Positions 12,884 to 38,884 of a stretch of DNA of 56,113 bases are shown piece after piece (position 1 is the stretch's first letter; every line of letters begins with the position of its first letter). The stretch covers positions 1 through 56,113 of the forward strand of contig JACPDX010000051.1 in NCBI GenBank assembly GCA_016183805.1, read 5' to 3'. A model generated the notes under the pieces. The model ran no database searches, was not told the origin of the DNA, and saw only the letters and a program-made list of their open reading frames with translations. The stretch comes from Bacteroidota bacterium (lineage in GTDB: Bacteria > Bacteroidota > Bacteroidia > Flavobacteriales_E > Vicingaceae). The position numbers and the translations under genes are program-made.

Positions 12884-15800
12884 CTATTGAGCAACGATTC
12901 GTTCGCTAAATAACTTTTTACCATTAGTATCTGTACCTACTATAATGTAAATGCCATTTTTTAATTGGCTTACATCTAATTCAGTTTTGTTGCTGGTATT
13001 GTTTTCCTTTTTCAACAATTCTTTGCCTGACATGTCAAATAATGAAACATGATAAGCAGCATTTATTTTTGCTTTATAATAAACAGTAATGTGTTCTGTA
13101 AATGGATTAGGGAAAACAATTATTTCGTTGGTTTCGGTAAAGGTAATTTCTTGAACAGAAACTGGAAAACTTGTTGTATCTTCAATGGTATTTAAAACTG
13201 TATTGGTAATAACTGCGGTATTGTAATCAAAATAAATATGTCCTGTATTAAAAATTGGGGTATTCGGAGCTAGGTTAGGATTTTGGTTAATACTAAATTT
13301 AACAAAACCTTGACTGCCTAAAAAATCTACATTACTATCAGGCAACATAATATTGTTAAATTTAAATACAGCTTCTCCATCTTGTTCTATCCATACTTGC
13401 ATAGAATGACTGCTTGCCAATGGCTTTAAACTAGCCCAATCTAAATTATCGTCTAATTGATCCCTAACCATTACTGTTAATGCAGTATCATTCCCCGTAT
13501 TTTGAAAACGAATTAAATATTCCAAGGGTTGATTGTTAGCAATAAAACCTTGTGAACCGATACCTTTCGGTAAAACTGTTTTATCGTTAGGGTCAAATGA
13601 ACAGACTAAAATTTGATTTAAAGTATCTGTATTGGTATAAACAATGTTGTTACTACCATCCAATTCGTAAACATTTAATATGGAAATTAAGGTATCTCCC
13701 ATACTTGTAAAAGGGGGCATTTGAACTTGTAGGTTAATCATCTCTTCAGAGAAAAAGAACAAACTATCAAAATGCCAATAGATGTTTTGCCCAACAATAG
13801 AATCTGGGGGATTTATTGATGACACATAAGAAACGGAATCATCTAATTGTATATGAACAATTCCATCTGGAAGAGTTGTCCCTTCATTTCGGATGTTTAC
13901 CCAATAATTTATAATAGTATTACATCTAGGAAAACCACCTGTTAGTTCGGGTTCTATAATTGTAGTAATGGTGTTTGGGTAAAACCCAAAATCTAAACTA
14001 TCTGCAATTGGATTAGCTCCAGTTAAGGTTTTGGTGTATGAGGATGAATCGGTAGTTAATCCCCATAAGCTATTAGGTATATAATTTACTGTATAAGTAC
14101 CAGTGTCAGTAGCAAAAAAATAATTGCCATTATTGTCGGAATATGCTGCAAGTGAATTAGGGTTTAATTCCATTTGAATAAAAGGTAGTCCAAATTCATT
14201 ACTATCAATTATTGTATTTTGATTAGAATCGTAAAATACATTTCCTTGGAATTGATAAGGACTGTTAAAATAATTTTCGTTCCAAATTATGCTGCTATTA
14301 CTAGCAACAGAAAGGATATCCTTATCTCCGTCTCCATCCATATCAATCCCCATAATAGAAGATGTTTCTGAAGACCCAGCAGCGGTGTATGACGAAGTAA
14401 TGATTTGTTCGGGACTAAAAGTAGTACCTCCAAGATTCTCTAACCATACTATATTATCCGCTATATATTGAGAAGTTATGATGTCATTATCTCCATCACT
14501 ATCTAAATCAGTGGAGAAAATGTCATTGGCATAGCTAACACTTGTTGTCAATGGTTGTGGAATGTTGAAATTGGCGTTGCCAGGGTTTAAAGAATAATAT
14601 ATTCCACCACTCGTTCCAAAAATCAAATCTAGATGAACATCATTGTTTATGTCGGCTGCATAAATTGTTAAAACTCCTGTAAGGAAACTAGAGAGTGGGG
14701 GGCCAAAATTACCACCTCCATAATTTTCATACCAAGAAACTTTCTCGTCATTAGTAGAAGCAGATAGAATATCATTATCTCCATCTTGATCTAGATCAGC
14801 AGCATATACTGTACACGCTCCATCAGCAAATGTTGTTAATATTTTTTCAGAACTAAAACTACCATTTCCAAGGTTTTCGTACCAGGCGATTTTATCATCA
14901 GAAGAAGATGCCGAAAGAACATCTATGTCACCATCATTATTAAGGTCAATAGCATATACATCGCGAGCTCCATCAGCATTGTTTGAAAGAATTTGCTCGG
15001 AGCCAAAAGTACCATTTCCAAGGTTTTTATACCAAACTACTTTTTTTTCGGAAAAAGAAGTAGAAAGAGCGTCTAAAAACCCATCATTATCTAAATCAGC
15101 GGCATATACAGAGCTGAAAAGTGAAAAGGAATCAATAACTTTCTTAGGACTATAATGGTTATATCCCAAATTTTCAAACCAATTTATGTGGTAATCATTT
15201 CTAGAAGCGGAGAGAACGTCAATGTCCCCATCGTTATCCAAATCGGCAGCATGTGTTGAAAGAGGACCGAAAGCTGAAGCGGTAGAAACAGGATTTTGTG
15301 CACTAAAAATAGAATCCCCAAGATTCTCGTACCATGCTATTTCCCCATTACCTACAGAAGCCGACAGCACATCTGAATCTCCATCTCCATCAATATCTGA
15401 TGCATATACTGCTGAGGCAATATACACATTATTTGCAATAATTAGGGAAGATCCAAAATTACCATTTCCAAGATTTTCATACCAAGCAATTCTATTATCG
15501 CCTTCAGAAGCTGATAACACATCAAGGTCTCCATCTCCATCTAAATCAGTAGCATCAACAGAGGAATACCGAATAGAAGTACCTTGTTTAATAATTTGTT
15601 TAGGTCCAAAGCTCCCATTTCCAAGGTTTTCGTACCAAGCTATGGAAGCGTTAATAACAGATGATGAAGCTGAAAGAACGTCAACATCTCCATCTCCATC
15701 TAAATCAGCAGAATAAACAGACCGAGCCTCATTTAGACTACTAGAAATAATTTGTTGGGCACCAAAATTACCATTTCCAAGGTTTTCATACCAAGCAATT

Positions 15801-16426
15801 TTATCATCATTATAAGATGCCGAAAGAATATCTATATCACCATCATTATTAAGGTCAATAGCATATACATCGCGAGCTCCATCAGCATTAATAGAAATAA
15901 TTTGTTGAGAGCCAAAACTACCATTTCCAAGGTTTTCGTACCAAGCAATTTTATCATCATTAGTTGAAGCAGAAAGAATATCAAAATCACCATCACCATC
16001 TAAATCTGAAGAATATACAGATGAGGCTCCATCAGCATTAATAGAAATAATTTGTTGAGAGCCAAAACTACCATTTCCAAGGTTTTCATACCAAGCAATT
16101 TTATCATCATTAGTTGAAGCAGAAAGAACATCAAAATCACCATCACCATCTAAATCTGAAAAATACACAGATGAAGCACCATTGGCATTGGAAGAAATAA
16201 TTTGCTGAGATTCAAAAGTACTATTTCCAAGGTTTTCATACCAAGCAATTTTATTATCATTAGCCGAGGCGGTAAGGATATCAAAGTCTCCATCTCCATC
16301 TAAATCAAAACTTTTCACATCTGTAGCACCAGTACTAAATACAATAGTTTGGTTTTCAGAACCGAATTGGGCAGTACTAATAATTGTAATTAGTAATAAA
16401 GGCAAAAACAGGAATAGCTTTTTCAT
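12884..16426 (-). CDS. FG-GAP/VCBS-repeat surface protein with T9SS type-A sorting domain
   Basis: The 1180-residue protein has a signal peptide (cleaved near TAQFG, residue 20). About fourteen tandem units of roughly 50 residues follow, each with DLDGDGDxDxLSAS and IAWYENLGNGxF. These are FG-GAP/VCBS beta-propeller blades whose DxDxDGDxD loops bind calcium. A SdrD-B-like domain follows (VFYDSNQNTIIDSNEFGLP, about 730-800), then a domain with CSFDPNDKTVLPKG and GHIYFDYNTAVITN near 960-1090, and a type-A tail (VFPNPFTEHITV onward). It is probably a large exported adhesin or surface-layer protein. Units 2-4 are almost identical in DNA, a sign of recent duplication or gene conversion. Confidence 0.85.
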   Translation of the reverse strand: MKKLFLFLPLLLITIISTAQFGSENQTIVFSTGATDVKSFDLDGDGDFDILTASANDNKIAWYENLGNSTFESQQIISSNANGASSVYFSDLDGDGDFDVLSASTNDDKIAWYENLGNGSFGSQQIISINADGASSVYSSDLDGDGDFDILSASTNDDKIAWYENLGNGSFGSQQIISINADGARDVYAIDLNNDGDIDILSASYNDDKIAWYENLGNGNFGAQQIISSSLNEARSVYSADLDGDGDVDVLSASSSVINASIAWYENLGNGSFGPKQIIKQGTSIRYSSVDATDLDGDGDLDVLSASEGDNRIAWYENLGNGNFGSSLIIANNVYIASAVYASDIDGDGDSDVLSASVGNGEIAWYENLGDSIFSAQNPVSTASAFGPLSTHAADLDNDGDIDVLSASRNDYHINWFENLGYNHYSPKKVIDSFSLFSSVYAADLDNDGFLDALSTSFSEKKVVWYKNLGNGTFGSEQILSNNADGARDVYAIDLNNDGDIDVLSASSSDDKIAWYENLGNGSFSSEKILTTFADGACTVYAADLDQDGDNDILSASTNDEKVSWYENYGGGNFGPPLSSFLTGVLTIYAADINNDVHLDLIFGTSGGIYYSLNPGNANFNIPQPLTTSVSYANDIFSTDLDSDGDNDIITSQYIADNIVWLENLGGTTFSPEQIITSSYTAAGSSETSSIMGIDMDGDGDKDILSVASNSSIIWNENYFNSPYQFQGNVFYDSNQNTIIDSNEFGLPFIQMELNPNSLAAYSDNNGNYFFATDTGTYTVNYIPNSLWGLTTDSSSYTKTLTGANPIADSLDFGFYPNTITTIIEPELTGGFPRCNTIINYWVNIRNEGTTLPDGIVHIQLDDSVSYVSSINPPDSIVGQNIYWHFDSLFFFSEEMINLQVQMPPFTSMGDTLISILNVYELDGSNNIVYTNTDTLNQILVCSFDPNDKTVLPKGIGSQGFIANNQPLEYLIRFQNTGNDTALTVMVRDQLDDNLDWASLKPLASSHSMQVWIEQDGEAVFKFNNIMLPDSNVDFLGSQGFVKFSINQNPNLAPNTPIFNTGHIYFDYNTAVITNTVLNTIEDTTSFPVSVQEITFTETNEIIVFPNPFTEHITVYYKAKINAAYHVSLFDMSGKELLKKENNTSNKTELDVSQLKNGIYIIVGTDTNGKKLFSERIVAQ
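15751..16200. repeat. Near-identical 150-bp tandem units within the surface-protein gene
   Basis: Three consecutive 150-bp units (15751-15900, 15901-16050, 16051-16200) each encode one 50-residue blade. The last two differ at only a handful of bases. The segment encoding GARDVYAIDLNNDGDI in the first unit is also nearly repeated about 900 bp away near 14930-14980. Confidence 0.8.
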
Positions 16427-33630: not shown

Positions 33631-33704
33631 GTTTTAAAGCCTATTTTCATAAATTAATTTTTCTTCCAAATATTTTTTTTCGTGGAAACACAACATATAT
33701 AGAA

Positions 33705-33748
33705 AATTATATATAACTTTGCATGAAATTATATACATAATTATATAT
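33705..33748 (+). promoter_or_regulatory. Promoter with three AATTATATA operator repeats for the ArsR-led sulfur operon
   Basis: AATTATATA occurs at 33705, 33727 and 33739, the last overlapping the ATG at 33747. TAACTTTG (33714-33721) fits the Bacteroidota TAnnTTTG promoter core, so the repeats straddle the -7 region, the likely start site and the initiation codon. That is a typical place for an ArsR-family repressor to bind and silence its own operon. No clear -33 element is visible. Confidence 0.6.
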
Positions 33749-34037
33749 GATAGAGTTAAAAAAATTAGAAAATGCGTCAGAAATGCTAAAAGCAATAGCT
33801 CATCCTATGCGAATAGCCATAGTAGACATGCTATCTGATAACCAAACGCTAACTGTAACAGAAATCCATGAGGCTTTGAAAATTGAGCAAGCAGTTGCCT
33901 CGCACCACTTAAGCATTTTGAAAAACAAAGGTGTTTTATTAAGTGTAAGAAGCGGGAAAAATTGTAATTATAAATTGAAACACCCTCGTTTATCACAAAT
34001 TATTTCATGCATAGATAAATGCCAAAACGAGCTCTAA
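33747..34037 (+). CDS. ArsR/SmtB-family regulator
   Basis: The 96-residue protein has the winged-helix ArsR fold: AIAHPMRIAIVDML (16-29), the recognition helix VASHHLSILKNKGVL (50-64) and the wing SVRSGKNCNYKL (66-77). Cysteines are at 73, 88 and 92; the last two are C-terminal and four apart. ArsR proteins of the BigR/SqrR kind sense persulfides through two cysteines, and this placement at the head of a sulfur operon suggests such a role, by inference. It is 4 bases from the next gene. Confidence 0.82.
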   Translation: MIELKKLENASEMLKAIAHPMRIAIVDMLSDNQTLTVTEIHEALKIEQAVASHHLSILKNKGVLLSVRSGKNCNYKLKHPRLSQIISCIDKCQNEL

Positions 34038-34041
34038 AAAT

Positions 34042-34824
34042 TTGGAAATTTTAGGTTACATATTAGCAATTTTTGTGGGTGTTTCCATTGGTTTGATTGG
34101 TGCAGGAGGCTCTATATTGGCATTACCTATATTGGTGTATTTGTTTGGTATTGAAGCAGCAGAAACAGCTCCTGCTTATTCGTTATTTGTTGTCGGGATT
34201 TGTAGTGTAATTGGAGCATATATGCGGCACAAACAAGGTTTAGTAAATTTTAAAACAGTATTGTTTTTTGGTGCCCCCACAGTTTTCGCTATTTTTATTA
34301 CCCGCTATTTTATTATTCCAATTATACCTCACCATCTTTTTACCATTAACCATTTCATTTTTACCATAAGGATTTTAGTAATGGGAATGTTTGGGTTATT
34401 GATGATTTTGGCATCTTATTTTATGATACTAAAACCCGTTTCGGATACACCGGTAAAAGTGAATCAAGTATTAAATTTTGGAGGAGGGGTTTTTACCGGA
34501 TTTTTATCGGGATTAGTGGGTGCAGGTGGTGGGTTTATTATGATTCCCGCTTTAATTAAAATAGGCAACTTAACTGTACAAATGGCCATAGGAACTTCAT
34601 TGGCAATAATAGCACTAAACGCCATTGTAGGTTTTGCAGCAAGTACAAGTCATATTTTTATTGATTGGAAGTTATTGCTCACGTTCTCAAGTTTATCTAT
34701 TATTGGAATAGTAATAGGTAACCATTTTTCAAAAAAAATAAAATCCGAAATCCTAAAAAAAGGCTTTGGCTGGGTTATCCTTTTCACAGGAATTTTTATT
34801 ATAATAAAGGAATTGATTTTTTAA
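34042..34824 (+). CDS. TauE/SafE-family sulfite/anion exporter
   Basis: The 260-residue membrane protein has about eight helices and the two conserved glycine-rich repeats of TauE/SafE: IGLIGAGGSILALPILVYL near residues 17-35 and LSGLVGAGGGFIMIPALIKI near 155-174. The family exports sulfite, sulfoacetate or related anions. The start is TTG at 34042, 4 bases after the ArsR stop. Placed before a persulfide dioxygenase that makes sulfite, it likely removes that product from the cell. Confidence 0.88.
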   Translation: MEILGYILAIFVGVSIGLIGAGGSILALPILVYLFGIEAAETAPAYSLFVVGICSVIGAYMRHKQGLVNFKTVLFFGAPTVFAIFITRYFIIPIIPHHLFTINHFIFTIRILVMGMFGLLMILASYFMILKPVSDTPVKVNQVLNFGGGVFTGFLSGLVGAGGGFIMIPALIKIGNLTVQMAIGTSLAIIALNAIVGFAASTSHIFIDWKLLLTFSSLSIIGIVIGNHFSKKIKSEILKKGFGWVILFTGIFIIIKELIF

Positions 34825-34835
34825 ACACTTAAGTA

Positions 34836-36239
34836 ATGTACGTAGAACAATTATACACAGGATGTTTGGCTGAAGCAGCCTATTACATCGAATCGAATGG
34901 CGAAGTTGCCATTATTGATCCTTTAAGAGAAACTTTTCCTTATACTCAACTTGCTGAAAAGCGAGGGGCAAAAATAAAATATGTTTTTGAAACACATTTT
35001 CATGCCGACTTTGTTTCGGGGCATGTGGATTTAGCTCAAAAAACAGGTGCAACCATAGTTTATGGCCCAACAGCTACTGCAGGTTTTAACATGTATGTTG
35101 GTAAAGACAACGAAGAGTTTAAAATTGGCAATATCAAAATAAAATTATTGCACACACCCGGTCATACACCTGAATCTTCGACTTATCTGTTGATTGATGA
35201 GCATGGTGAAAATCACGCAGTATTTACCGGTGACACTCTATTTTTGGGTGATGTTGGAAGACCTGATTTAGCTATAAAATCAGATGTTACCGAAAAAGAT
35301 TTGGCCGGGATGTTATTTGATTCGTTACGAAACAAAATAATGCCACTGGCAGATGAGGTAATTGTTTATCCGGGTCATGGTGCAGGATCAGCTTGTGGTA
35401 AAAATATGAGTAAAGAAACCATAGGTACAATTGGTAACCAAAAGAAAACCAATTATGCCTTGAGAGCCGACATGACCAAAGAAGAATTTATTGCCGAAGT
35501 ACTTCACGGTATTTTACCTCCTCCACAGTATTTTGCTAAAAATGCCATGATGAATAAAAGTGGTTACAAAAGTATTGACGACGTAATGAAAGCAGGTTTA
35601 AACCCAATGGCTATTGATGAGTTTGAAAACGAAATGGCAGGAGCCGTTATTATTGATACCAGAACACAACGTGAATTTAAAGATGGGTTTATTCCTTCTT
35701 CCATTTTTATTGGATTAAATGGTCAGTTTGCAGTTTGGGTTGGAGCATTGATTACCAATTTAAATCAAAAAATACTTTTAGTTACTGATGAAGGAAAAGA
35801 AGAAGAATCCGTTTTACGTTTGGCTAGAGTTGGTTACGACAATTGTGTGGGATACTTACAAGGAGGATTTGATACATGGATAACTGCCGGGAAGCCTGTA
35901 GATATTATTACATCTATTTCTGCAAAAGAATTGGAACAGGTTGTATTAACAAAAGAAGTGCAAATTATTGATGTTAGAAAGCCAACAGAATTTTTATCAG
36001 AAAGATTAGAACAAGCAGAATCTTTTCCATTGGACGACATTAATAACTGGTTAAATAAATTAGATAAAACTGAAACAAAATATTTACACTGTGCAGGTGG
36101 TTATCGTTCAATGATAGCCACTTCCATCCTCCGAAGAGAAGGATATAAAAATATTATTGATGTAGCAGGAGGTGCCAATGCCATCTTTAATAACACCAAT
36201 TTAAAAAGGACAGCTTATGTTTGTCCATCAACGCTTTAA
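34836..36239 (+). CDS. CstB-like persulfide dioxygenase fused to a pseudo-rhodanese and a rhodanese
   Basis: The 467-residue protein begins with a metallo-beta-lactamase domain. Its iron-site residues match persulfide dioxygenase: ETHFHADF with His54, His56 and Asp58, TPGHTPESS with His110, FTGDTLFLGDVGRPDL with Asp133, and PGHGAGSACG with His181. The first rhodanese domain (about 265-350) has no cysteine in its loop (LLVTDEGKEEES), so it is inert. The second (about 365-450) has HCAGGYRS with Cys419. This is the three-domain plan of staphylococcal CstB, which oxidises persulfides and makes thiosulfate or sulfite. It is cytoplasmic. Confidence 0.88.
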   Translation: MYVEQLYTGCLAEAAYYIESNGEVAIIDPLRETFPYTQLAEKRGAKIKYVFETHFHADFVSGHVDLAQKTGATIVYGPTATAGFNMYVGKDNEEFKIGNIKIKLLHTPGHTPESSTYLLIDEHGENHAVFTGDTLFLGDVGRPDLAIKSDVTEKDLAGMLFDSLRNKIMPLADEVIVYPGHGAGSACGKNMSKETIGTIGNQKKTNYALRADMTKEEFIAEVLHGILPPPQYFAKNAMMNKSGYKSIDDVMKAGLNPMAIDEFENEMAGAVIIDTRTQREFKDGFIPSSIFIGLNGQFAVWVGALITNLNQKILLVTDEGKEEESVLRLARVGYDNCVGYLQGGFDTWITAGKPVDIITSISAKELEQVVLTKEVQIIDVRKPTEFLSERLEQAESFPLDDINNWLNKLDKTETKYLHCAGGYRSMIATSILRREGYKNIIDVAGGANAIFNNTNLKRTAYVCPSTL

Positions 36240-36263
36240 TTAATAACTAAAAACAAACAAAAA

Positions 36264-36539
36264 ATGAGTTACGAAAACGTAAATTTAAACGAAGCAACAA
36301 TTGTAGATGTAAGAGAACCGTTTGAATATCAAATGGGAAGGGTAGAAGGTTCAATAAATATTCCATTAGGACAAGTACCCGAAAGAATTAACGAATTTAA
36401 AAACATGAAAAAACCATTAGTACTTTGCTGTGCATCAGGTGGAAGAAGTGGTCAGGCCACACATTTTTTATCACAAAATGGAGTCGACCAAGTGTATAAT
36501 GGTGGTGGCTGGAACATGGTTGCTATGAGAAAAAGATAA
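36264..36539 (+). CDS. Single-domain rhodanese with vicinal cysteines
   Basis: This 91-residue protein is a single rhodanese domain: ATIVDVREPFEYQMGRVEGSINIP opens it, and LCCASGGRSGQA (Cys55 and Cys56, with Arg61) is the active-site loop. Cys56 is the predicted sulfur carrier and Cys55 sits beside it, as in the next rhodanese gene. It lacks a signal peptide, so it works in the cytoplasm, probably receiving or giving sulfane sulfur to CstB-like or other carriers. Confidence 0.88.
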   Translation: MSYENVNLNEATIVDVREPFEYQMGRVEGSINIPLGQVPERINEFKNMKKPLVLCCASGGRSGQATHFLSQNGVDQVYNGGGWNMVAMRKR

Positions 36540-36540
36540 G

Positions 36541-36588
36541 TTGGAAGACCGAAGTCGGAAGACCGAAGTTGGAAGATAGAAATTAACG
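36541..36588. repeat. Dispersed GGAAGACCGAAGT repeat between two rhodanese genes
   Basis: TTGGAAGACCGAAGT, then CGGAAGACCGAAGT, then TTGGAAGATAGAAATT form three imperfect tandem copies of about 15 bases. Related words occur at 27920, 43745 and 49864. Confidence 0.7.
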
Positions 36589-36607
36589 TTAACTAATAAA
36601 TAAACAG

Positions 36608-36910
36608 ATGAGTTTTTTGAGGAAAATATTTGGACTAGGTCCAAAGGTAGATGTGCACGAATTAATACGAAATGGTGCTACATTAATAGATGTTAGAACA
36701 CCAGCAGAATATAATTCAGGACATGCAAAAGGTTCTACCAACATTCCGTTAGATAAAATAAGTACAAAAATCGAAAAGATTAAACAGCTTAAAAAACCAG
36801 TAGTACTTTGTTGTCGTTCTGGTATGCGAAGCGGACAAGCCACCTCAATTTTAAAAGGAGCAGGAATAAAAGAGGCTTATAATGGTGGTCCGTGGAATAA
36901 TTTTGCATAA
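36608..36910 (+). CDS. Single-domain rhodanese with vicinal cysteines, paralog
   Basis: The 100-residue protein repeats the plan of the preceding gene: TLIDVRTPAEYNSGHAKGSTNIPLD and then LCCRSGMRSGQA with Cys68, Cys69 and Arg74. Shared wording (KKPxVLCCxSGxRSGQATxxL and YNGGxWN) points to a tandem duplication, with the dispersed repeat lying between the copies. The N-terminal MSFLRKIFGLGPK extension is basic. It is cytoplasmic. Its stop at 36910 is 1 base before the next ATG. Confidence 0.85.
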   Translation: MSFLRKIFGLGPKVDVHELIRNGATLIDVRTPAEYNSGHAKGSTNIPLDKISTKIEKIKQLKKPVVLCCRSGMRSGQATSILKGAGIKEAYNGGPWNNFA

Positions 36911-36911
36911 G

Positions 36912-37127
36912 ATGAAGGACTGGATATTACATCATAAAAAGAACTTTCTGTTATTATTAATCGGGGCTATTGCCGGATATTGTTATTGGTACTTTGTGGG
37001 TTGCGAATCGGGTACTTGTGCCATTACTTCAGTTTGGTATCGAACAACAATTTATGGTGCTGTAATGGGGTGGTTAGTAAGCGATTTATTGTTTAAAAGA
37101 ACTAAAAACAAAACAAATGAAGACTAA
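36912..37127 (+). CDS. DUF6132 family small membrane protein
   Basis: The ATG at 36912 (MKDWILHHKKN) gives 71 residues. One or two membrane segments (FLLLLIGAIAGYCYWYFVG, IYGAVMGWLVSDLLF) flank a loop with GCESGTCAITS holding two cysteines four apart. The pattern matches DUF6132 proteins that recur beside rhodaneses in Bacteroidota sulfur operons. The cysteines may exchange sulfane sulfur or bind a metal, by inference. It overlaps the next gene by 11 bases. Confidence 0.78.
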   Translation: MKDWILHHKKNFLLLLIGAIAGYCYWYFVGCESGTCAITSVWYRTTIYGAVMGWLVSDLLFKRTKNKTNED

Positions 37128-37710
37128 ATTATTGTATTTTATCCCTTTGGTATTTTTATTTGCTTGTAATACTTCAGAAAAAAAAGTGGATGAAGAAAAA
37201 ATTAAAGTTATTGCTAAAACAGAGAACGACTATTTGATTGAAGGTAAACAAATTGCAGAAGCTACCTTTAAGGTTTTAAGTACAAATTTAAAAAATGTCA
37301 TGGCTGAAGGAGGAGTAGAAAACGCAATTAAATTTTGTAATGTAAATGCCATGCCACTAACCGATTCTTTGTCTGATTATTATAATGTTACCATAAAAAG
37401 AGTTAGCCACAAACCACGTAATTTAACCAATGAACCTACTGCGTTGGAACAACATATTATTGACAATTATTTAGCATTAGGTACTGTAGAAAATATGCAA
37501 CCTATGATTGCCCGAAATGAGCAACAAAAAAACGTTTTTTATGCACCAATTCCGGCTAAAGGATTGTGTTTGAGTTGCCATGGTATAATTGGAGAAACCT
37601 TATTGCCGGAGCATTATGAAACAATTAAAAAGTTTTATCCAAACGACAAAGCAATAGGGTTTAAAGAAGGAGATTTTAGAGGTATGTGGAGTATTACGTT
37701 TAAACAATAA
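37117..37710 (+). CDS. Tll0287-like (DUF3365) c-type haem lipoprotein
   Basis: The 197-residue product is a lipoprotein (FLFACNTS, lipidated Cys17). It has a single CLSCHG haem c motif at residues 151-156 in a DUF3365/Tll0287-like domain, with KFCNVNAMPLTDSL and VSHKPRNLTNEPT upstream. Tll0287-like domains are PAS-like and bind haem c. It faces the periplasm, so it may pass electrons or sense redox state there. It is embedded in the sulfur operon, between DUF6132 and thioredoxin. Confidence 0.85.
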   Translation: MKTKLLYFIPLVFLFACNTSEKKVDEEKIKVIAKTENDYLIEGKQIAEATFKVLSTNLKNVMAEGGVENAIKFCNVNAMPLTDSLSDYYNVTIKRVSHKPRNLTNEPTALEQHIIDNYLALGTVENMQPMIARNEQQKNVFYAPIPAKGLCLSCHGIIGETLLPEHYETIKKFYPNDKAIGFKEGDFRGMWSITFKQ

Positions 37711-37714
37711 TAAC

Positions 37715-38011
37715 ATGTCAAAATTCAAAGAGCTTTTAAATTCAGATTTGCCTGTTTTAGTCGATTTTTATGCCACATGGTGTGGCCCTTGTAAAATGAT
37801 GAGCCCTATATTAGAGGATGTTGCAGGTAAAATGAAAGGAAAAGTAAAAATAGTTAAGGTTGATGTAGATAAAAATCAACACGCTGCTGAAGCTTATCAG
37901 GTAAGAGGCGTTCCAACCTTAATATTATTTAAACAAAGCAAACCCGTTTGGCGACAATCAGGTGTTGTACAAGCCAGCCAATTAATTCAAATTATTAATC
38001 AAAACCAATAA
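37715..38011 (+). CDS. Thioredoxin
   Basis: The 98-residue protein has the thioredoxin fold with YATWCGPCKMMSP (active-site WCGPC at residues 21-25) and the cis-proline VRGVPTLILF near 67-76. It lacks a signal peptide and is cytoplasmic. Its place in this operon, 4 bases after the haem lipoprotein, suggests it reduces persulfidated rhodaneses or other sulfur carriers, by inference. A general housekeeping role is equally possible. Confidence 0.92.
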   Translation: MSKFKELLNSDLPVLVDFYATWCGPCKMMSPILEDVAGKMKGKVKIVKVDVDKNQHAAEAYQVRGVPTLILFKQSKPVWRQSGVVQASQLIQIINQNQ

Positions 38012-38015
38012 AAAC

Positions 38016-38417
38016 ATGAAGAAAATTATTTTATTATCAGCAGTAGTGTTAGCACTTTTTACTACTTCTTGTGGAACAAGTCAAAACAATAACACTGAAG
38101 CAGTAATTGTAACTGTTGACGCAACAAAATTTAAAGAATTGTCAACTCAGGCAGGAACTATCTTGGATGTTCGAACCCCAGAAGAATGGGCAGAAGGTAC
38201 TATTGAAGGAGCAACAAAAATTAATTACCACGACGATAATTTTGAGCAACAAGTAGAAAAATTAGATAAAGAAACTCCTGTTTATGTATATTGCAAATCA
38301 GGAGGAAGAAGTTCAAGTGCAGCAGATATATTGGAGAAAAAAGGATTCAAAAAAGTTTATAATCTTGACGGGGGTATAACCTCTTGGAAAGAAAATGGAT
38401 TTGAGGTGGCTAAATAA
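38016..38417 (+). CDS. Rhodanese-domain lipoprotein
   Basis: The 133-residue protein has a signal peptide with lipobox (LFTTSCGTS, Cys near residue 19) followed by a rhodanese domain: TILDVRTPEEWAEGTIEGATKINY and YCKSGGRSSSA with the catalytic Cys near 93. It is therefore a membrane-anchored periplasmic sulfurtransferase, in contrast to the three cytoplasmic rhodanese-type proteins of the same operon. It is the last gene before the terminator at 38434. Confidence 0.88.
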   Translation: MKKIILLSAVVLALFTTSCGTSQNNNTEAVIVTVDATKFKELSTQAGTILDVRTPEEWAEGTIEGATKINYHDDNFEQQVEKLDKETPVYVYCKSGGRSSSAADILEKKGFKKVYNLDGGITSWKENGFEVAK

Positions 38418-38433
38418 TCCAAATGTTGTAAAT

Positions 38434-38465
38434 AAAACAGCCTCGTTTTTAGCGAGGCTGTTTTA
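38434..38465. terminator. Strong bidirectional terminator at the end of the sulfur operon
   Basis: AAAACAGCCTCG and CGAGGCTGTTTT form a twelve-pair stem with a short loop, followed by ATTT. It serves the rhodanese operon on the plus strand and the convergent acidic-protein gene (stop at 38471) on the minus strand. Confidence 0.9.
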
Positions 38466-38470
38466 TTTAC

Positions 38471-38884
38471 TTATTTTTCATCGTCATCATCAAATTCTTC
38501 ATCTGCAATATCATCAACGTCTTCATCATCATCAAAATCATCTATGTCATTAACATCATCCACATCATCGTCCACGTCGTCAACTTTAAATTCATCCACG
38601 TCAGCATCAACCCCTTTTAAATCTTCCTCAATAGCTGCTACATCATCAAAGTCATCATCATCCTCATCTTCATCATCAGTGGGTTTGTATTTGGTTTTTT
38701 TCTCGGTATCTAAAATGACCAAATAATTTACTTCATCACCTTCTGTCTCGAATAAAAAACCTTCTTCTATATTTCCTTGATAAGGGAAATTAAAAAATTT
38801 AACATCTTCATTCTCTAATTTCTGGCGAACAGCCTTTTTTAGCTCGGTTGAAAGCTTCGAATATTTAATAACTAATTTTTTCAT
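38471..38884 (-). CDS. Small protein with a very acidic C-terminal tail
   Basis: The 137-residue protein has a short basic N-terminal domain (MKKLVIKYSKLSTELKKAVRQ) and a central LFETEGDEVNYLVIL strand. After residue 70 it is almost all Asp and Glu (for example DEDEDDDDFDD), which binds cations or basic proteins. I do not recognise the fold with certainty. Similar acidic proteins are found in Bacteroidota and are sometimes called primase-like. Codon use in the tail is dominated by GAT and GAC. Confidence 0.7.
   Translation of the reverse strand: MKKLVIKYSKLSTELKKAVRQKLENEDVKFFNFPYQGNIEEGFLFETEGDEVNYLVILDTEKKTKYKPTDDEDEDDDDFDDVAAIEEDLKGVDADVDEFKVDDVDDDVDDVNDIDDFDDDEDVDDIADEEFDDDDEK

Follow-up and report, generated by a model that had tools for sequence, protein, structure and literature searches.

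The window, a stretch of 56,113 nucleotides of DNA from a Bacteroidota bacterium (contig JACPDX010000051.1 of the assembly GCA_016183805.1), contains one tight block of nine genes, all on the plus strand between positions 33747 and 38417, that is a candidate operon for the handling of sulfane sulfur. In its 3.47-Mb genome, which is distributed over 109 contigs and is 95.9% complete, the window corresponds to contig C74. An ArsR-family repressor gene preceded by an operator-like site opens the block, and an intrinsic terminator closes it (Table 1). The successive distances between the genes are 4, 11, 24, 68, 1, −11, 4, and 4 bases, the negative value being an overlap. The initial annotation, which described nine genes from ArsR to a terminator with gaps or overlaps below 70 bases, was correct in this respect, and scans against Pfam and NCBIfam agreed with its family names for all nine genes. 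Loci gathered for comparison are designated by L and a number.

Table 1. Features of the nine-gene block and its borders. Positions refer to the window.
Feature	Position	Strand	Basis or remark
Putative operator palindrome ACATATA-N8-TATATRT	33693..33714	+	upstream of ArsR
TAnnTTTG promoter box	33714..33721	+	pattern search; overlapped by the palindrome
ArsR-family repressor	33747..34037	+	HTH_5/ArsR matches; C88-x3-C92 near the C terminus; D27 at the place of SqrR Cys41
TauE/SafE membrane exporter, likely for sulfite or a related anion	34042..34824	+	PF01925, 129.7 bits; TTG start
CstB-like fusion: metallo-beta-lactamase (MBL)-fold persulfide dioxygenase, middle rhodanese, C-terminal rhodanese	34836..36239	+	alignments to 3tp9 and 3r2u
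Single-domain rhodanese, loop CASGGRS	36264..36539	+	family scan, sequence; no signal visible
14-base tandem repeat, 2.8 copies	36538..36576	+	repeat search; between rhodanese genes
Single-domain rhodanese, loop CRSGMRS	36608..36910	+	family scan, sequence; no signal visible
DUF6132, predicted two-helix membrane hairpin with Cys-x4-Cys	36912..37127	+	PF19628, 45.5 bits, cut-off 23.2
Tll0287/DUF3365 (sCache_heme) haem-c lipoprotein	37117..37710	+	Pfam, 72.2 bits, cut-off 24.1; lipobox Cys17, Cys74, CXXCH 151-155
Thioredoxin, WCGPC	37715..38011	+	TIGR01068, 122.6 bits, cut-off 96.8; no signal visible
Lipoprotein rhodanese, loop CKSGGRS	38016..38417	+	family scan; lipobox-type signal
Intrinsic terminator, perfect 18-bp inverted repeat	38428..38470	+	repeat/terminator scan

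Regulator, enzymes, and membrane-bound proteins of the block

An imperfect palindrome, ACATATATAGAAAATTATATAT, is located 5' of the ArsR gene and continues into a TAnnTTTG box, the promoter consensus of Bacteroidota. The search pattern for this palindrome, derived from three genomes (the window and two relatives), matched 9 of 361 loci. These loci represent five genomes, the three source genomes included, and each has one site some tens of bases 5' of the ArsR gene. A longer form of the palindrome occurred once in the own genome and its reversed control not at all, and the relatives L126, L036, and L048 had only degenerate versions. Within the block, TAnnTTTG was matched five times on the plus strand, whereas single-base shuffles gave 2.8 matches on average. 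Because one of these matches is immediately 5' of the DUF6132 gene, the block may contain an internal promoter.

The ArsR protein passed the model NF033788 for ArsR/SmtB regulators (73.9 bits, cut-off 55). Its Cys-x3-Cys is common to 14 of the 19 ArsR-like proteins of the gathered loci, and the other five proteins are more distant. The cysteine pair of SqrR is composed of Cys41 and Cys107. An assignment of the window protein as a BigR/SqrR sulfur sensor was rejected: its D27 faces the cysteine in that helix of the SqrR chain, and the model for BigR, which is an ArsR-type repressor, gave 46.2 bits and was thus below its cut-off of 155. Because C88-x3-C92 is present instead of the SqrR-type pair, the regulator is, as judged from its residues, an ArsR with a thiol or metal site that is placed outside of BigR/SqrR by the defining cysteine pair.

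The CstB-like protein aligned over nearly its full length with the three-domain MBL-rhodanese structures 3tp9 (E 2e-61) and 3r2u (E 6e-59). Its motifs HxHxD, HTPGHTPES, GD, and PGHGAGSxCGK, which were aligned with 3r2u, are presumably the metal ligands of a CstB-like dioxygenase. The loop of the middle rhodanese has no cysteine, and the last rhodanese contains HCAGGYRS. By domains and motifs, the protein is a persulfide dioxygenase-sulfurtransferase of the CstB type with a predicted activity. It did not reach the cut-off of 625 of the Blh model NF040641 (63.4 bits). The TauE protein has the N terminus M-E-I-x-G-Y when read from the TTG start, which is shared with several relatives, and export of sulfite by this protein is plausible.

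All three separate rhodaneses have intact catalytic loops, and the visible signals assign only the last of them to the outside. This lipoprotein rhodanese passed neither of the PspE models, NF007627 (38.8 bits, cut-off 102) and TIGR02981 (34.5 bits, cut-off 126.3). A frame similar to sulfide:quinone oxidoreductase (SQR) is encoded elsewhere in the own genome, on the minus strand of contig C80 (C80:25419-26468), with the Aquifex SQR 3hyv as its best solved match (E 3e-56). When the type III-like SQR of L042 was used as the query on the own genome, the only match was a weak one to this frame.

Both cysteines of the Cys-x4-Cys motif of DUF6132 were invariant in 87 of 87 sequences. They are placed in a loop of low charge that separates two hydrophobic stretches flanked by basic residues; the mean number of lysine plus arginine residues was 2.86 before, 0.57 in, and 2.64 after the loop. 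DUF6132 is predicted to form a hairpin whose two cysteines face the periplasm, a prediction that rests more on the charge pattern because the hydrophobicity thresholds for both helices were reached in only 22 of the 87 sequences. A sequence search for a solved relative of DUF6132 found none. The possibility that DUF6132 is a split-off membrane domain of YgaP (PF11127-type) found no support at the sensitivity of the comparison, with an hhalign probability of 1.4% over 13 columns of shallow profiles. The sole match to DUF6132 in the full texts accessible to a literature search concerns DUF6/EamA transporters. In other Bacteroidia (L176, L181, L130, and L167), a Crp-type regulator, OsmC, a YgaP-like protein, a TehB-like methyltransferase, a flavoprotein-rhodanese fusion, and HMA were seen around DUF6132, either in scans of one locus or by eye.

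The haem protein matched the structure 5b82 by sequence (E 3e-6) and by profile (E 1e-14). A structural model with a predicted local distance difference test score (pLDDT) of 90.3 had a fold match to 5b82 with a Foldseek E of 2e-9 and a Z of 16.7, covering 151 residues at a root mean square deviation of 3.3. By the Pfam cut-off, the CXXCH motif, and the modeled fold, the protein belongs to Tll0287/sCache_heme. In 132 homologues of at least 150 residues, with some pairs coming from one genome, CXXCH and Arg188 were present in all 132, and Cys74, Arg95, and Arg101 in 130 each. A covalently bound haem with Cys/His ligation is expected. The sequence alignments to 5b82 end before Cys74, so that its position as axial ligand is suggested by its conservation and the description of the family, and not by an aligned residue in this structure. 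A 2026 preprint (PMC12889525, available text) reports Cys/His ligation both for Tll0287 itself and for a stand-alone protein of Pseudomonas. A comparison of the haem protein with NCBIfam (E up to 0.01) yielded no match, SoxA and TsdA included. Homology to SoxA/TsdA was rejected, with Tll0287 as the best fold match, followed by Cache/PAS sensors. A search of the own genome for SoxA gave no match, and the control query was likewise silent.

Recurrence of the gene families in other genomes

Genes were counted as neighbors of DUF6132 when they were located within 2.5 kb on the same strand, and coding sequence at least 4.5 kb away served as background. The DUF6132 sample comprised 80 loci (L126-L205), of which L195, L197, L198, and L200 had no profile match, leaving 76. 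The CstB sample consisted of 59 regions around CstB matches, and the named haem-protein loci were the best 80 of 541 confirmed relatives. Another 40 haem-protein loci were chosen with about one per genus and with exclusion of nine that adjoin DUF6132, which lowered the rhodanese count in this set. Exported proteins were labeled by a strict signal rule that misses some likely cases, e.g., L321. Neither the flank rates nor the binomial used for clustering takes relatedness into account.

Of 60 genomes searched, the own genome included, 48 had a CstB-like gene with an E of 1e-60 or lower. Within 2.5 kb of the 59 CstB loci were TauE (34 loci), a rhodanese (19), thioredoxin (10), ArsR (9), and DUF6132 (9). 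The initial annotation had asked for the same gene set in other genomes. As a single complete run the set is rare, being present in the window and in one of the 59 other CstB loci, L042; its parts recur. Of the 76 DUF6132 loci, 66 had at least one of the following neighbors: a rhodanese (55 loci), thioredoxin (41), CstB (21), and the haem protein (8). The 195 kb of distant coding sequence used as background contained two thioredoxin genes and no rhodanese gene. The rhodaneses near DUF6132 were cytoplasmic in 54 of the 76 loci and exported in 6. Seen from the haem protein, 40 of the best 80 named loci had an adjoining CstB or rhodanese, 23 an exported rhodanese, and 15 of these CstB as well. 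The background of the far zone was 2 CstB and 4 rhodaneses in 182 kb.

Because the neighbor counts differ when seen from DUF6132 and from the haem protein, there seem to be two separable modules, an inner one of rhodanese, rhodanese, DUF6132, and thioredoxin, and an outer one of exported rhodanese and haem protein, with the window joining both to a core of CstB and TauE. A tree of haem proteins with 52 rows, some of them on very long branches, was calculated with omission of proteins shorter than 170 residues, L054, L151, and identical rows. The rhodanese context changed 9 times on this tree, compared to a mean of 14.4 and a minimum of 10 in 300 shuffles. This indicates that the context is partly inherited and was, as far as the tree can tell, regained or lost several times.

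Other arrangements of the same families exist. In L057, from the genus of the window, all roles are present and split over two neighboring ArsR-led runs. The second run (L057:11160-19399) contains a second ArsR, a resistance-nodulation-division (RND) permease with two likely partners assigned by eye, a small YgaP-like protein, DUF6132, the haem protein, thioredoxin, and rhodaneses. This RND permease was below every listed NCBIfam cut-off, including those of the heavy-metal permeases CusA/CzcA. Genes that appear RND-like by their N-terminal residues alone adjoin haem proteins in L055, L259, L264, L266, and L274. The congeners L085 and L126 have a gene for 344 residues at the position of the haem protein, and the product of L085:7021-8055 is a protein of the MauG/di-haem peroxidase type. 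A gene of this type is also present in L042 (L042:6770-7807), together with the haem protein. In Lutibacter maritimus DSM 24450 (L305), a SulP permease, CstB, a lipoprotein rhodanese, the haem protein, a flavoprotein, and an SQR-like flavoprotein are encoded on one strand, and both flavoproteins score under the curated cut-off; DUF6132 was not seen in this locus. Among the single relatives that were scanned, OsmC, SQR-like, flavoprotein-rhodanese fusion, YgaP-like, and YeeE-like neighbors occurred. A split YeeE/YedE-type sulfur transporter (Sulf_transp and DUF6691; L036:9358-10326) lies between CstB and a rhodanese.

Three further features of the window were recorded. The 2.8 copies of the 14-base unit AAGTTGGAAGACCG take up the greater part of the 68-base gap, the longest of the operon, and a 20-base pattern derived from it was found on two further contigs of the genome. 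On the minus strand, a highly acidic protein of 137 residues (38471-38884) is convergent with the operon, and its frame ends beside the stem of the terminator. About four tandem repeats of 150 bases are present at 15590-16307, perhaps within a gene for a repeat protein.

Predicted path of sulfane sulfur and competing explanations

The block is probably, with some reservation on our side, a two-compartment operon under repressor control that handles and detoxifies sulfane sulfur in the form of persulfide, polysulfide, and thiosulfate. This assignment starts from what is directly seen, namely gene content and order, the conserved operator-like site, the families with their key residues, and the recurrent linkage. 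With the families, signals, and a linkage above the rate in flanking DNA, the initial idea of a sulfane-sulfur operon with inner and outer proteins was upheld. Read from its genes, the block is a detoxification operon of the type SQR-persulfide dioxygenase (PDO)-rhodanese to which an outer arm has been added, and the chemistry of this arm is what we infer.

ArsR would release the promoter once the thiols of its C-terminal Cys-x3-Cys are modified. Sulfide would be converted to persulfide by the SQR-like enzyme encoded elsewhere in the genome, the CstB-like enzyme would use O2 to oxidize low-molecular persulfide to sulfite, and the rhodanese of the same protein may combine sulfite and sulfane sulfur to thiosulfate. 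TauE would export sulfite or thiosulfate, and the two small rhodaneses and thioredoxin would shift or reduce sulfane sulfur in the cytoplasm. On the outside, the lipoprotein rhodanese may draw sulfur from thiosulfate or polysulfide in a PspE-like manner. The haem-c lipoprotein may take or give electrons in this outer sulfur exchange, and DUF6132 may relay persulfide sulfur or a disulfide across the membrane via its periplasm-facing cysteines. The sink for electrons would be the respiratory chain and not the dioxygenase. Persulfide dioxygenases contain non-haem iron and incorporate both oxygen atoms of O2, and they work without a reductant. An electron flow from the haem protein to the dioxygenase, as the initial annotation had proposed, is therefore unlikely, and thioredoxin has no visible signal peptide that would place it on such a route.

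Several results weigh against the proposed two-compartment operon. The haem protein was near only 3 of the 59 CstB loci. A rhodanese was a neighbor in 7 of the 40 further haem-protein loci, and the haem-protein family as a whole is therefore not tied to sulfur. Its Cys74 is no mark of sulfur chemistry because almost all relatives have this cysteine, among them proteins without sulfur neighbors. A unit of DUF6132, haem protein, and thioredoxin exists without adjoining rhodanese or CstB in L128 and L277-L279, with L128 and L279 being one genome. The own SQR-like frame passed no NCBIfam cut-off for SQR (116.3 bits, cut-off 525). Finally, DUF6132 was present in 92 and the haem protein in 86 of the 295 genomes of the class, and both together in 22 compared to 26.8 expected (one-sided p 0.93). 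Co-occurrence at chance level, which the initial annotation had named as evidence against its proposal, thus applies to whole genomes but not to the physical arrangement: in 9 of the 22 shared genomes, which span 5 families, both genes are 3 kb or less apart, compared to 0.04 expected.

The outer proteins may instead serve sensing or a general redox balance, such as in response to nitric oxide (NO) or oxidant stress, and may merely be carried with a sulfur operon, which we consider unlikely. One Tll0287-type domain fused to a signaling module was tested and bound NO tightly, according to the available text of PMC12889525, and 33 of the 40 further haem-protein loci had no rhodanese neighbor. 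On the other hand, the only stand-alone protein examined in that preprint bound neither O2 nor NO strongly and behaved in a redox-like manner (PMC12889525, text available in part), the haem protein of the window has no signaling domain, and it is repeatedly paired with an exported rhodanese and CstB.

An assimilatory operon, in which the lipoprotein rhodanese and DUF6132 gather sulfur from thiosulfate for biosynthesis and the dioxygenase serves as an overflow, has a similarly small chance of being correct. Such a function would agree with PspE of Escherichia coli, which turns external thiosulfate into cytoplasmic sulfane sulfur, as given in the accessible part of PMC10215317, and with the YeeE-type Sulf_transp pair that adjoins CstB in L036. 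It does not agree with an operon headed by the exporter TauE and a dioxygenase, and control by an ArsR repressor suits stress better.

A more specific chemistry for the outer arm is improbable and is given here for what it would explain. In TsdA, as described in the available text of PMC4423706, a haem-ligating cysteine carries thiosulfate as S-thiosulfonate, and arginines are present in the active site. The haem protein of the window, the fold of which is unrelated to that of TsdA, combines a single c-haem motif with an additional conserved cysteine and conserved arginines, and its neighbor is a rhodanese. The haem lipoprotein could be a sulfur enzyme that arrived at a TsdA/SoxA-like chemistry from an unrelated Cache fold. 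In this scheme, Cys74 would detach from the iron, take sulfur from thiosulfate or persulfide oxidatively, and transfer it to the lipoprotein rhodanese, with the cysteine of the latter as acceptor; the Cys-x4-Cys of DUF6132 would carry sulfane sulfur across the inner membrane to the cytoplasmic rhodaneses. Stand-alone Tll0287 proteins would then have a function in one context, and the missing step of sulfane-sulfur import noted for PspE would be supplied. The general presence of Cys74 in the family weighs against it, and no aligned residue proves ligation.

A metal or metalloid stress operon, in which the Cys-x3-Cys of ArsR would sense a soft metal and the thiol proteins would respond together with the efflux pump of the sister locus, is very unlikely: ArsR also matches metalloregulators, the second run of L057 unites its ArsR and RND permease with the thiol proteins, and TehB-like and HMA proteins occur in single relatives, but neither a metal pump nor an ATPase or reductase is encoded in the block, CstB and TauE indicate sulfur, and the L057 permease did not reach even the CusA/CzcA cut-offs.

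As a sulfane-sulfur operon, the block suggests a testable role for two families without an assigned one, DUF6132 and the stand-alone Tll0287 proteins; the latter are described as likely "redox-related" in the available text of PMC12889525. The operon also offers a candidate for the passage of periplasmic sulfane sulfur into the cytoplasm. A cultured carrier of the part composed of CstB, exported rhodanese, and haem protein is available with Lutibacter maritimus DSM 24450.

Comparison with known systems

We know of no outer arm in the cst operon of Staphylococcus aureus, the CstB of which is, like the window protein, a three-part MBL-rhodanese-rhodanese enzyme (3r2u). That operon differs by its regulation through CstR and by the presence of CstA and SQR in the cluster, as far as described in the accessible part of PMC9918477. 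The yrkD-pdo cluster of Bacillus licheniformis resembles the window block as a repressor-led, co-transcribed cluster for SQR-PDO detoxification with PDO-type enzymes, a rhodanese, TauE, and thioredoxin, but its repressor is CstR-like and not an ArsR, it has DsrE, TusA, and NreBC, and the available text names no outer rhodanese, haem protein, or DUF6132 (PMC9918477). The BigR-Blh operon of Xylella and Agrobacterium shares a sulfurtransferase/dioxygenase fusion with the window, according to the text available of PMC5823870, whereas the window proteins are far below the cut-offs for Blh and BigR, and the cysteine pair differs.

Among proteins that resemble the outer arm, the stand-alone sCache_heme/Tll0287 proteins (5b82) share the fold, CXXCH, and a further conserved cysteine with the haem lipoprotein, but the words "rhodanese" and "thiosulfate" are absent from the main text of PMC12889525. 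TsdA and SoxA have a c haem with Cys/His ligation, as is expected for the window protein, and a sulfur context (PMC4423706, text available in part), but the window protein has one haem on a Cache-like fold, and no homology was detected. PspE is likewise an exported single-domain rhodanese, but the window rhodanese is a lipoprotein under the cut-offs of the PspE models. In E. coli, PspE generates periplasmic sulfane sulfur from thiosulfate, which then enters the cytoplasm by a step called unknown in the accessible part of PMC10215317.

The statement of the initial annotation that known CstB systems lack a periplasmic half is accordingly valid for the Gram-positive clusters described in the texts available. 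It is not valid for Bacteroidota, with CstB, exported rhodanese, and haem protein together in the 15 named loci counted above, and a periplasmic rhodanese that feeds cytoplasmic sulfane sulfur had already been described with PspE (PMC10215317, available part). Among the papers listed in the literature searched, which mostly lacked subscription journals, no description was found of a CstB operon combined with an exported haem-rhodanese arm and DUF6132. The inner route is already known, and what appears new at this locus is the joining of a CstB-type sulfane-sulfur operon to an exported haem-rhodanese arm and to DUF6132.

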